From: Amphirosellinia nigrospora
Lineage: Eukaryota; Ascomycota; Sordariomycetes; Xylariales; Xylariaceae
Assembly: GCA_004123355.1 (NCBI GenBank)
Contig: SCHM01000003.1
Span: 5,909,058-5,973,057, forward strand
Reading direction: 5' to 3'
Length of the DNA: 64,000 bases
Positions 34,068 to 61,975 of this stretch are shown here, one piece after another; within the stretch, counting starts at the first letter, position 1, and each line of letters opens with the position of its first letter. A model generated the notes under the pieces. That model ran no database searches, was not told where the DNA came from, and saw nothing but the letters and a program-made list of their open reading frames with translations. Made by a program: the position numbers and the translations under genes.

Positions 34068-37000
34068 ATGCATCTTTCACTGACGATCCCGTATTCCGCC
34101 TTATTGGCTTGCCTAGTCCATGCAGGCCATGGACTAGACACCAGCAAAAACTGGTCATCAAATTCGAACGAGCGTCGTGACCTTGGCCAGCAACCCCGAT
34201 CCATATGTCGCACCTACATGACAACTGTGTTGGTAACTCTTTCATCAGACGCCACCACTAGATCCAAGGGTGATGGACCACGTACAGATTCACTGAACGA
34301 TGCAAACGGTGCGCTAGACTTTTGCTTCTTTTGCAATATCTGCACCGTAGCTAATCTAAGCGGTAGTAGAACACCATGAAGACCCTGTTTATCTAACTGT
34401 CGCGCACTCAAAATCTCAACTTGGGGATCCCTATACCAAGCTTGCGGATGCCGATACACAAACACAAGGACATGACCAGAGGGTCAACGTTGGGCCGTCC
34501 GCCCATGGGTTGGCACCTGGGCGGCCAATTATGTCTTATTCTAGCACAAAACCTGGCGATAGAACATCCTCTCATAGTCCAACGAGAACTATACAGAACC
34601 AACCACCGGCTGACACTAAAGCGGCGAGTGTCGTGCCTGGGCAGATAAATTCTCCTGTAAGTATTTTGTCGTCTCTCTGGCTCTAAGCTTCAGCCGCGCA
34701 GTGCACTTAACACTTTATCAGGCGTTGCCGAGAATATTCGGTATTGCAAGATATAGCAACCAGGACACAACGACTTCAGAGCTACGCGAAGGATTTGTGG
34801 GAGACCCGTCATACGGAACCACGACCGAATGCTCAGAGGCCCAAATATTCGTCCTAGGTAACTGCAGGTTACAGAGTGCTGGCAAGACTCTATCTGCAAA
34901 CTTTGGAGTGAGATACTTAGACTTAGCCAGTCATCCCGAGGGTTCCATCACGTCTTGCTTCGAAGATGTAGATGGGTTTCTAGAATGGCGAAATCCTGTG
35001 TTCTATGGAGGTGCAGCTAAATTCTGTCAAGCCGCCAATGGTCACATATACGCAACATTCACTAAATCAGGAGGCCCAGCTGACTGCACTCCAGTATATC
35101 TACCTATCTACGCCGGTAAGTCATAGAACTCAATCTCTTAACTATGTTACTAACATGACATCTCCTCAGCTGAGAAGTGCCATAATGGCTCCATGATAGA
35201 TGATGCCATGATGGGCAGCACGCGGGCGGGCACAGCTGACTCGACTGCGTCGATTGAGGATCCCGGTGCCTCTAGCCTTGCTGCGTCCAGCCAGAATATT
35301 CCTGTAAAAACATCAAAAATGCAAGGTAGTGGCACAACAATGATAGCAAGCTCTTCTCGACCGACCGAGACCATCTGTCAGCAAGACACCCAAACCAGGC
35401 TCTCGCCGTTTTTCGATAGATCCAGACAACTTCGCGGCCAACGGCTCTGCACGCTCAACAAGCATTTCAGACCGTCCCGTAGGCTACACGAAATTCAGAT
35501 CACCCACAGAAACAAGCCCATCATCTATGGAAACCGCAACGTCTAGCTTGATGCTAAATACCACTGCTTCATCCTTACCAACTACAAGTTCGATCGGTGG
35601 TAGTGACTATAATCCAGGAATCATTAACGCCACGGTGTCCAACTCTAGCTCATTAGTTATGAACGTTACGTGGACACAACCTAGTGAAGCTGATCCGACA
35701 ACCTCTACAAGCCCGATGGCAAGCACCATGGAGCCATCGATGGGGTTAAACAGCACACTCCCTACTTCCACCGGCGCGGTCAATTCTACCTCTGTTGGGG
35801 AGACAATGAATAGGATGAGATTATCCACGGGCATAACATCACAGAGCACCCCGTTTAATGATAACGCTACGATTACCGCTGCACCAACTCCGACCTCAAC
35901 CGGTCTTCCTCCAGGGATAAATTTACATAACCCTAAAAATCCAGAAGACCCCGATGATCCTAACGGCTCAAGTGACCCAAGTAACTCTAGCGATCTGAAT
36001 GATCCCAATGGCCTTGATGGATCTTCAACCAGTAGTTTCACTACCATGCCCAACATTACATCGAGCTCTAACATAACTTACACCAGCACTACGACAAGCT
36101 TTTCTGAAGGTTCAATGGCAAGCCTTACTATGAACTCGACTAGGACTTCTACCGAAAGCCCTGCCATGAGTTCTATTGCAAACTCTACTACAAATTCTAC
36201 AACAAGCTCTACTGAAAGCTCTACCGAAAGCTCTCCTACGATCCCTATTGGAAGATTTAATACGGACTCTACTACAAACTCCACTGAAAGCTTTGCTACG
36301 AGTTCCACTGCAGGCTCTACTACAAACTCTACTATTACCTCTGCTGGCAGCTCTGCTACTGCCTCTATTGCGAGACTTACTATGAACTCTACCGCAAGCT
36401 CCGCTGAAAGCTTGGCTACGAGTTCGGCTGCAGGCTCTATCACGAACTCTACCATCACCTCTACTGGAAGCTCTACTGCAGCAGACCCGTCTATAACAGC
36501 ATCTAACAATATCACTAGTATTCAGATAACTTCCAATAGCACACGATCAATCGAAGATCCTCAAACAACAAGCGAGTCATCTCCAGATACGACCATGAGC
36601 AATCCCATCGTCACGCCAGGCACGATGTCTAACACTTCAAACCACTCTTCACCGGCATCCTTTTCACTTACCCCCTCATCTGCTCCATCATCGAGCCCGA
36701 CTATTCCTAAGATTTCTTATCTAGGTCCTGGCACGTTTCCCACGCCGCCTCTCAGACTATCGTCGGCGGTTACGCCTTCGCCGTTGAGTCTAGGTCCTGG
36801 TTCCTTTCCCACTCCGCCCCAGAGGTCATCGCCAGTCGTTACGCCTTCACCCTTGAGTATACTACCGACCAACACGTCCGCTCTAGTTATCGATTCAATT
36901 TCTTCTGCCTTTTCATCGTTGCTTACTCCGTTGCCTCCGATACTAGATGTCGCTAAACTAGCTACTTCAGTAAGGCCGCTAGCGACAGGACCGCGAGACA

Positions 37001-38311
37001 CGCCATTACCAAAGTCAGATCCTCCCGTCGTCTTCATGAATTATGTTAGTACCGGCTCTCATACCCACTGTCGTGAATTCATTTGATTATTAACGCGACC
37101 AATAACAAGCCTACAAAACCAAGACCGACACCGAGCACAAGACCGTCGGACACACCTCGACCAACGTTGGATACTCTGGTTCACTCCATGAGTTATGTTA
37201 GTATTAGCTCTCACAATACCTCTTGTGAATCAACTACATTACTAATGGCACTGACTTTAAGCATACTCTGTCGACTGTGACGACAAGACCTTCAGAGACA
37301 TCTCTATCGGCATCGACATCTCTACTGGTGTCAACACCTCTACCATCGACACCTCTACCGGTGTCAACACCTCTGTCAGCATCAGATGTTTCAGTCGCTT
37401 TTGTATCAGAGACACCTCTACCAGTACCAGAAGCCCCAGTCGTCTTTATGGCATATGTTCGTACTAGTTCTTACAAGACCTTTCGTAAATTGAATAAATT
37501 ACTAATGCTACCTACCGTAAGCCCACGAAGCCGGCTGTAGCGACAAGATCTTTGGAGACCACACTACCTGTGTCGACACCTCTACCATCGACACCTCTAC
37601 TGGTATCAACACCTCTACCGGTGTCGACACCTCTACCATCAACATCTCTACCGGTATCGACACCTCTACCGGTATCGACACCTCTGCCATCGACACCTCT
37701 ACCAGTATCAACACCTCTGCCATCGACACCTCTACCGGTATTGACACCTCTACCATCAACACCTCTACTGGTATCAACATCTATACCGGCATCAACACCC
37801 TTGCCAGTATCAAGTGATCCAGTCGCCGTTGTGTCAGAGACACCTTTACCAGTACCAGAAGCTCCAATGATCTTTATGGCCTATGTCAGTATCAGTCCTC
37901 AAGACCTCTCATAAATCAGCCAAGTTTATTAACATGACCCGCCATAAGCCAACGAAGCCAGTCGTAACAACAAAACGGCCTTCGGAGACGCCCTTACCAG
38001 CGTCAACACCTCTACCAGTATCAACGCCCCTACCAGTGCCAGATGCTCCAGTCGTCTTCGCGTCCTATGTTAGTACCATCTCTCCCTAGACCCTCTCCTG
38101 AATCAACCAAGTTAACATGACCCACAACAAGCCCACGAGGCCACAACGTCCACGACACAGAGGGGCCCGCCTCCCCCTTACTAGTTCCTCTCGTGGTCAT
38201 CCGGGGTCATCCGGGGTCCGTGATTCTAAGGGACAGACACCGCTCGAGCTGCACGTCATCCATTACTCCGCACGAGCTGGCCAAACGGACGAGGCGCAAC
38301 TGACACGATAG
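34068..38311 (+). CDS. Mucin-like cell-surface protein with DUF7908-like domain and tandem exon modules
   Basis: ATG 34068 opens a signal peptide (MHLSLTIPYSALLACLVHA). The splice from this exon to the next, open from about 34370 (EDPVYLTVAHSK), is uncertain; a GCTAATC branch and TAG acceptors lie at 34349-34369. Later introns are clearer: 34657-34721 and 35116-35169. Exon 34722-35115 encodes a cysteine-rich domain (TECSEAQIFVLGNC, FYGGAAKFC, GPADCTPVYLPIY) that resembles fungal DUF7908. A large Ser/Thr-rich exon ending at 37044 follows, full of NST sites and internal repeats. Near 35304-35400 its frame changes by one; a 43-bp intron (35304-35346) or an indel could explain this. Then come exons 37110-37196, 37262-37456, 37522-37884, 37949-38068 and 38132-38311, all phase 0, separated by similar 63-65-bp introns. 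They repeat PTKP...STPLP...TPLPVPEAPVVFMAY. The protein probably sits in or on the cell wall, heavily O-glycosylated. There is no GPI signal at the predicted C-terminus, which is Arg-rich and unlike the rest. Confidence 0.75.
36120..36480 (+). repeat. Ser/Thr-rich coding repeats (NST units)
   Basis: The large mucin exon contains degenerate copies of a unit of roughly 35 residues, with the pattern NST..S.ES.ATSS.AGS.TNSTIT..GSS.A. Two copies are adjacent near 36270-36485. Each has N-glycosylation sequons and many Ser/Thr. Confidence 0.7.
36721..36864 (+). repeat. Duplicated Pro-rich coding repeat (GPG.FPTPP)
   Basis: Two adjacent copies of about 24 residues follow the pattern LGPG(T/S)FPTPP....S.VVTPSPLS. 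They lie within the mucin-like gene, just before its modular exons. Confidence 0.8.
37045..38131 (+). repeat. Tandem exon-intron modules
   Basis: Introns 37045-37109, 37197-37261, 37457-37521, 37885-37948 and 38069-38131 have lengths 65, 65, 65, 64 and 63 bp. Most begin GTTAGTA or close variants. Most carry a TTAYTAAY-like branch site in the last third, and all end in AAG. The flanking exons begin with PTKP-like codons and end in a tyrosine codon after VVFMA. Exon lengths 87, 195, 363 and 120 are all multiples of three. Exon 37522-37884 contains a further tandem array of STPLP units of 15-30 bp. Confidence 0.85.
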
Positions 38312-61085: not shown

Positions 61086-61975
61086 TGCAGTGAGCACTTT
61101 CGGTTCTTAAGGGCGGGCTTCCAAGTAAAAAAGTGATCAGATCGATGTTAACTAGCACTGGCGATGCTTGATTTGAAGCATCAATGGTAAGTGAAGGGGT
61201 GGAAGGTGGGAAGTGGAAGATCCTAGAAATAGTGATGTTCTCAAGGAAGGCGAGTGTACAAGTGCATAGGTGAGTACCAATGTAGCAGGTTTAAAGTCCA
61301 AGAGATTACCTACCTACCTAGACCTACCTACCTCCTACCTACCCAACCTCCTACCTACCTACCTCCCACCTACCCAACCTCCTACCTACCTACCTCCCAC
61401 CTACCTACCTCTCCTACCTACCTACCTACTACCTACCTACCTACTACCTACCTAACTACAGGTCCCGACAGCACATGTAGGTACATACCTAGGTAGGTTC
61501 AAAGACAAGGAAGGCGTAATAAAGAATGGGGTAATATATACAGATACATATATGCATACTATATAAAGCAGGAAGGTACAGGTTTAGTTGCTAATAAACG
61601 TACCTGCCGCAAGTGCAATAGAGAGCACAATCTAGGTACTTAGCATACCTAGGCAGTAGAGACAATATTAAACAATTCCTTTGCTTGTAGTTCATGGCAC
61701 TTCTTTGCCAATATATCACTTTAACTGCCGTTGTTGAATCTGGCAAGGTCTTTCCTTCTCTTAAACTACATCCCTCATAAGTTTAATCCTTTGTTTGGCG
61801 GCAGGAAAGATCCAAGCTGAAAATCGGTGTCTAAGTAAGTTCAAGCTCAGTAATCACATGTGATTGTGGGTATTCCCCTTCTTTCAACTAAACAATCACC
61901 ATTGGGAGCCCAACTTATTGGACCCGACCCAGAAGAAACTGTGATAAAGTTGACTGTACAGGACAGATAAGCACA
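61086..61975. promoter_or_regulatory. Divergent intergenic region with CTAC repeats
   Basis: This 890-bp gap between two divergent genes contains the (CTAC)-type array, scattered TAGGTA and ACCTAGG words, and a TATA-like stretch (61533-61565). Confidence 0.45.
61307..61456. repeat. (CTAC)n/(ACCT)n microsatellite with longer period
   Basis: An imperfect tetranucleotide array of about 150 bp. Superimposed on it is a repeat of about 38-41 bp in the form CTACCTACCTCC.ACCTACCCAACCT, seen at least twice. Confidence 0.9.

Follow-up and report, generated by a model that had tools for sequence, protein, structure and literature searches.

The closest described counterpart of the locus considered here is CNN00420, a single-copy gene of Cryptococcus neoformans, in which, according to Sharpton et al. 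2008 (PMC2395259), introns 3, 4 and 5 are identical and supported by ESTs. As that account has it, repeats of approximately 107 nt hold the exon ends together with a full intron, exonic repeats of approximately 39 nt are present too, and the number of intron-containing repeats varies among strains, the proposed mechanism being unequal crossing over, conversion or slippage (PMC2395259). With such a gene described in Cryptococcus, the statement of the first-pass annotation that no named system of this kind is known in fungi falls. In Zymoseptoria tritici, the other types of intron duplication, within-gene tandem duplication included, are reported to make up less than 1% of single intron gains (PMC4457414), so that such cases are uncommon but known.

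The locus lies in a 64,000-nt stretch of contig SCHM01000003.1 of Amphirosellinia nigrospora (the window), and the genome searched comprises 48.1 Mb in 11 contigs. The array of five predicted introns would form the 3' part of a gene with the following predicted layout, all features being on the + strand:

34657..34721, +: 65-nt candidate intron (GTAAGT...CAG) preceding the DUF7908 exon
34722..35115, +: exon with the DUF7908 domain (PF25485), from a profile match
35116..35169, +: candidate intron, 54 nt, GTAAGT...CTAAC...CAG
35347..37044, +: long Ser/Thr/Pro-rich open reading frame, running into the array
37045..37109, +: array intron 1 (predicted), 65 nt; if unspliced, an in-frame stop, the open frame ending at 37086
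37110..37196, +: exon, 87 nt, PTKP...VHSMSY
37197..37261, +: array intron 2 (predicted), 65 nt
37262..37456, +: exon, 195 nt, HTLS...VVFMAY, with a TPLP minisatellite
37457..37521, +: array intron 3 (predicted), 65 nt, donor GTTCGT
37522..37884, +: exon, 363 nt, PTKP...MIFMAY, containing a 15/18-bp minisatellite at 37564-37799
37885..37948, +: array intron 4 (predicted), 64 nt
37949..38068, +: exon, 120 nt, PTKP...VVFASY
38069..38131, +: array intron 5 (predicted), 63 nt, branch region shortened
38132..38311, +: last exon, ending in TAG, starting with PTRP, the remainder apparently non-repeated

Upstream of the array, the same open frame (35347-37044) carries further coding tandem repeats that are free of introns, namely Ser/Thr-rich repeats of 12/60/120 bp at 36179-36474 and LGPG-type repeats of 69 bp at 36720-36858. 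A TACC-type simple repeat array of approximately 150 bp is found at 61307-61459.

The DUF7908 exon is identified by a match at 34722-35115 with an E-value of 6.5e-21 and 75.4 bits, well above the curated cut-off of 27 for the family, and it is the single DUF7908 match returned for the genome. Relatives of this exon were found neither in viral contigs nor in the PDB, and the open-access literature searched returned no paper naming the domain. The array is probably the Pro/Thr/Ser-rich tail of this DUF7908 protein gene, the two parts being joined by an intron that would have to lie between the DUF7908 exon and the long Ser/Thr frame; none of the best 14 of 33 GT-AG options for that intron is convincing, and branch-like matches occur in one of these 14. 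The interval at 35170-35560, across which the DUF7908 and Ser/Thr-rich frames stand with no convincing joining intron, may represent a frame break, a decayed gene, an unusual intron or an assembly error.

The five consecutive introns were confirmed to be similar to each other, at lengths of 65, 65, 65, 64 and 63 nt, and the exon lengths of 87, 195, 363 and 120 nt between them are as first described. All five end in AAG, and the donors, claimed to be GTTAGTA-like, read GTTAGTA in 3/5, GTTCGTA in 1/5 and GTCAGTA in 1/5. The branch-like sequence is TTATTAAC in two introns and TTACTAAT in two others, while in the fifth a four-column gap is followed by GTTAAC only. The description of the exons as running from PTKP to VVFMAY holds as a general pattern and is too strict as an exact one: PTKP follows three of the five introns, with PTRP and HTLS following one each, and the exons preceding introns 1-5 end in VVFMNY, VHSMSY, VVFMAY, MIFMAY and VVFASY, respectively, exact VVFMAY thus occurring in 1/5.

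The mutual likeness of the introns exceeds what their shared splice signals would contribute. Identity is 62-82% in pairwise alignments and 56-75% on the multiple alignment, and when donor, branch and acceptor were held fixed and the interior was shuffled 500 times per pair, the observed score was reached by at most 1/500 shuffles for 9/10 pairs (summed z 12.4), the exception being the pair 1-4, whose score is reached by 47/500. The comparison with other introns of the genome that had been proposed for this array gave the same proportion, as 9/10 array pairs outscore every one of the 105 pairs that 15 other candidate introns form. These 15 are computer-picked candidates, some of them doubtful and two belonging to the array's own gene, and they were obtained by keeping 23 of 40 candidates by score, one of which lies within the array, and by taking the first 15 of these after removing the array and lengths outside 45-90. 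Neither of the upstream candidate introns resembles the array introns above background, with scores against the five of -0.28 to -0.02 for 34657..34721 and of -0.17 to 0.11 for 35116..35169.

Splicing of these five introns is favoured by the logic of the sequence. The spacings of the modules (152, 260, 428 and 184 nt) include no multiple of three (0/4), but once the intron is subtracted, all four of the resulting lengths (87, 195, 363 and 120 nt) are multiples of three, which would happen with a probability of 1/81 if lengths were random and which fits spliced phase-0 introns, as had been claimed for all five. By the same length arithmetic, losing or gaining one exon or a whole unit would keep the frame, as the earlier reading had it. 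Retention of the introns would be disruptive: introns 1, 4 and 5 contain in-frame stops, introns 2 and 3 have none, but their retention shifts the frame, and the lengths of 4/5 introns are not multiples of three. Furthermore, invariant columns make up 11/18 of the donor, branch and acceptor positions versus 12/49 elsewhere (one-sided p 0.007), an excess that is expected if splicing constrains the module copies.

The alternative is that the gene ends at the in-frame TGA (ending 37086) and is followed by a decayed or non-coding repeat array that never undergoes splicing, and several features of the locus are compatible with it. In addition to the unconvincing 5' join, the array donors GTTAGT, GTTCGT and GTCAGT deviate from GTAAGT, the commonest donor in the background set (6/23), and the exon end of module 2 has drifted (VHSMSY). 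Coding constraint is likewise slight, as the variable columns in the exon flanks are distributed over the three codon positions (16 columns each) as 9/9/11 for all five modules and as 9/4/10 when module 2 is left out (position 3 vs 2, p 0.07), so that the exon flanks appear to be at most weakly constrained. However, a never-spliced array would not be expected to combine exon lengths that are multiples of three in 4/4 cases with spacings that are so in 0/4, nor to conserve splice-element columns preferentially, and across the four internal exons the frame stays open for 255 codons. The coding frame is free of stops in 4/4 of these exons, the other two + frames having stops in 4/4 and 1/4; as one alternative frame is almost stop-free, the open frame counts as only moderate evidence. 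Taken together, a decayed, unspliced array is rather unlikely.

That whole exon-intron units were duplicated in tandem, as the first-pass annotation proposed, is supported by homology that reaches from the introns into the exon flanks. Repeats of 191, 127 and 69 nt span the intron borders, and the alignment of the modules has invariant columns on either side of these borders. Among the ten local alignments of module pairs that were run, the pair 1-2 was dropped owing to overlapping windows, and all nine usable pairs exceed the highest score among 100 shuffles, their alignments beginning 45-70 nt upstream of the intron. In 8/9 of them the alignment passes through the whole intron and ends 11-123 nt past it at 63-78% identity, while that of the pair 2-5 stops 20 nt inside the intron. 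A model of the module run against the window scored 93.9-106.6 bits in five matches, the other five in its list being weak (2.9-9.6 bits), and the product of the 363-nt exon, searched against the genome at the protein level, gave four matches at E up to 1, none of them outside the array. The homology of the modules across exon and intron is thus an observed property of the locus, and the most likely reading is that exon-plus-intron modules were duplicated in tandem, with a 15/18-bp coding minisatellite growing between them. The copies that are closest in their exon flanks (modules 3-4, 42/48) are not those that are closest in their introns (4-5, 49/60), a disagreement which suggests that duplication may have been mixed with conversion; exchange between module copies may therefore have occurred, the exon-intron difference for modules 3-4 having a Fisher p of 0.014, uncorrected and for a pair chosen among ten.

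Similar introns within one gene could also arise if a single family of mobile introns, of the introner-like type, had inserted repeatedly, here into a repetitive exon. Fungi do carry introner-like elements, whose identification can be difficult (PMC4457414); according to the summary in PMC8469720, such elements are marked by a stable predicted secondary structure or by inverted repeats. No stable fold of the array introns was found (z 0.48, -1.19, 1.29, 0.06 and 1.90 for introns 1-5), and the array introns thus lack the structural mark of such elements. The structure of an intron can decay with age. The donor GTTAGTA and the branch-like TTATTAAC/TTACTAAT (37045-37109, 37197-37261) are nearly reverse-complementary, giving a consensus stem of seven pairs, among which no compensatory change is present. 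A conserved RNA structure in the array introns is accordingly not supported, given fold z values between -1.19 and 1.90 and the lack of compensatory pairs.

The whole genome was searched at the DNA level with the array, module 3 and each of introns 1, 2, 4 and 5 including short flanks, and no near-identical copy turned up elsewhere; as the module 3 query recovered one of its four sister modules and the intron queries found only themselves, these searches miss most sisters within the array and would be blind to copies elsewhere that had diverged to the same degree. A profile of the array introns found 5/5 of them in the window and gave no match in 30 other stretches (17 pattern loci and 13 sampled ones, 181,861 bases). 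The pattern behind these loci, GTTAGTA followed by TTAYTAAY at the right distance, has 21 matches genome-wide versus 4 for a reversed control; array introns 1 and 2, which alone of the five fit it, account for two of the matches, most of the others look AT-rich by eye, and the profile check of the pattern loci left out the C10 match. One of the 13 sampled 10-kb stretches, L038 (G000:C5:2549889-2559888), has 13% GC, as is expected for a heavily RIP-mutated or centromere-like region; together with the short introns of fungal type, it would point to a filamentous ascomycete. Against repeated insertion of a mobile intron stand, above all, the exon flanks, which are homologous and were co-duplicated with the introns, together with the failure to find near-identical copies elsewhere or profile matches in the 30 other stretches and the lack of a stable fold, and this origin is considered very improbable.

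The model that accounts best for the locus is tandem duplication, and it is held with high confidence that an ancestral exon-intron module was copied in tandem to five, each copy serving as an in-frame linker. The ancestral module would have consisted of an exon end, a spliceosomal intron of approximately 65 nt and the start of the next exon, approximately 120-240 nt in all, and replication slippage or unequal crossing-over would have produced the tandem copies, five altogether. Each exon lies between phase-0 introns and has a length divisible by three, which would explain the survival of the copies: a duplication would have added an in-frame linker segment, with the extra intron being spliced out. 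The 15/18-bp coding minisatellite (TPLPVS/TPLPS) would have expanded independently by slippage inside some of the exons, chiefly at 37564-37799. The product is likely a flexible stalk, perhaps O-glycosylated and tolerant of changes in length. We infer both this mechanism of duplication and the role as a stalk. The four internal exons encode 255 residues with 24% P, 16% T and 16% S, a composition that suggests a disordered stalk.

The proposal that the gene encodes a surface protein found no support, since the parts examined contain no hydrophobic signal or membrane stretch. Measured as windowed means on a gene model that is uncertain at its 5' end, hydrophobicity peaks at 1.27 over 19 residues in the predicted spliced frame of 880 residues and does not exceed 0.55 over 15 residues within the first 60 residues from Met 34531 (a guessed start). 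The last exon (38132..38311) lacks a hydrophobic end, its best 15-residue mean being 0.05.

Since all modules are in-frame and phase 0, the array might also act as an active device for length variation, in which differences in module copy number or exon skipping, among isolates or among transcripts, tune the reach of the protein, and the intron-containing repeats of CNN00420 are indeed described as polymorphic in number (PMC2395259). The copies at the present locus are, however, diverged, and introns that are 62-82% alike do not suggest a recent expansion, nor is homogenisation seen, which makes such a device unlikely. A more elaborate version, in which the end of the DUF7908 gene would be a length rheostat on two levels, with modules changing by unequal exchange or exon skipping, the minisatellite changing within exons and the introns limiting exchange between modules, is a speculative idea to which little probability is given. 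The array is real and above chance, and it most likely represents an older case of a process already known.

As far as the published accounts of the comparable systems go, the array shares with CNN00420 its setting in a fungal gene, several mutually similar introns, a repeat unit made of exon ends plus a complete intron and separate short exonic repeats. The two are taken to be different genes by their content, and while introns 3, 4 and 5 of CNN00420 are identical, those of the array have diverged to 62-82% identity and are known here from the sequence of one genome. Small, regular and related introns between repeated coding units are likewise described for spider silk genes, namely Argiope MaSp2 and flagelliform spidroins (PMC9779670); the MaSp2 introns are, however, homogenised, with an average likeness of 97.6% within the gene, whereas the array has diverged and includes only five. 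Families of related introns are also represented by the fungal introner-like elements (PMC4457414) and the sister stwintrons of Hypoxylaceae (PMC8469720), which, as described in these sources, occur in many copies and in unrelated genes, unlike the array introns, whose known members lie in one gene and whose exon flanks were co-duplicated. The array therefore looks like an ordinary within-gene tandem duplication of the kind already described in another fungus. It is a further fungal case in which several introns can be traced to the tandem duplication of an exon-intron module, and, its copies being more diverged than those of the Cryptococcus case as described, it is relevant to the length of time for which introns of this origin are retained.
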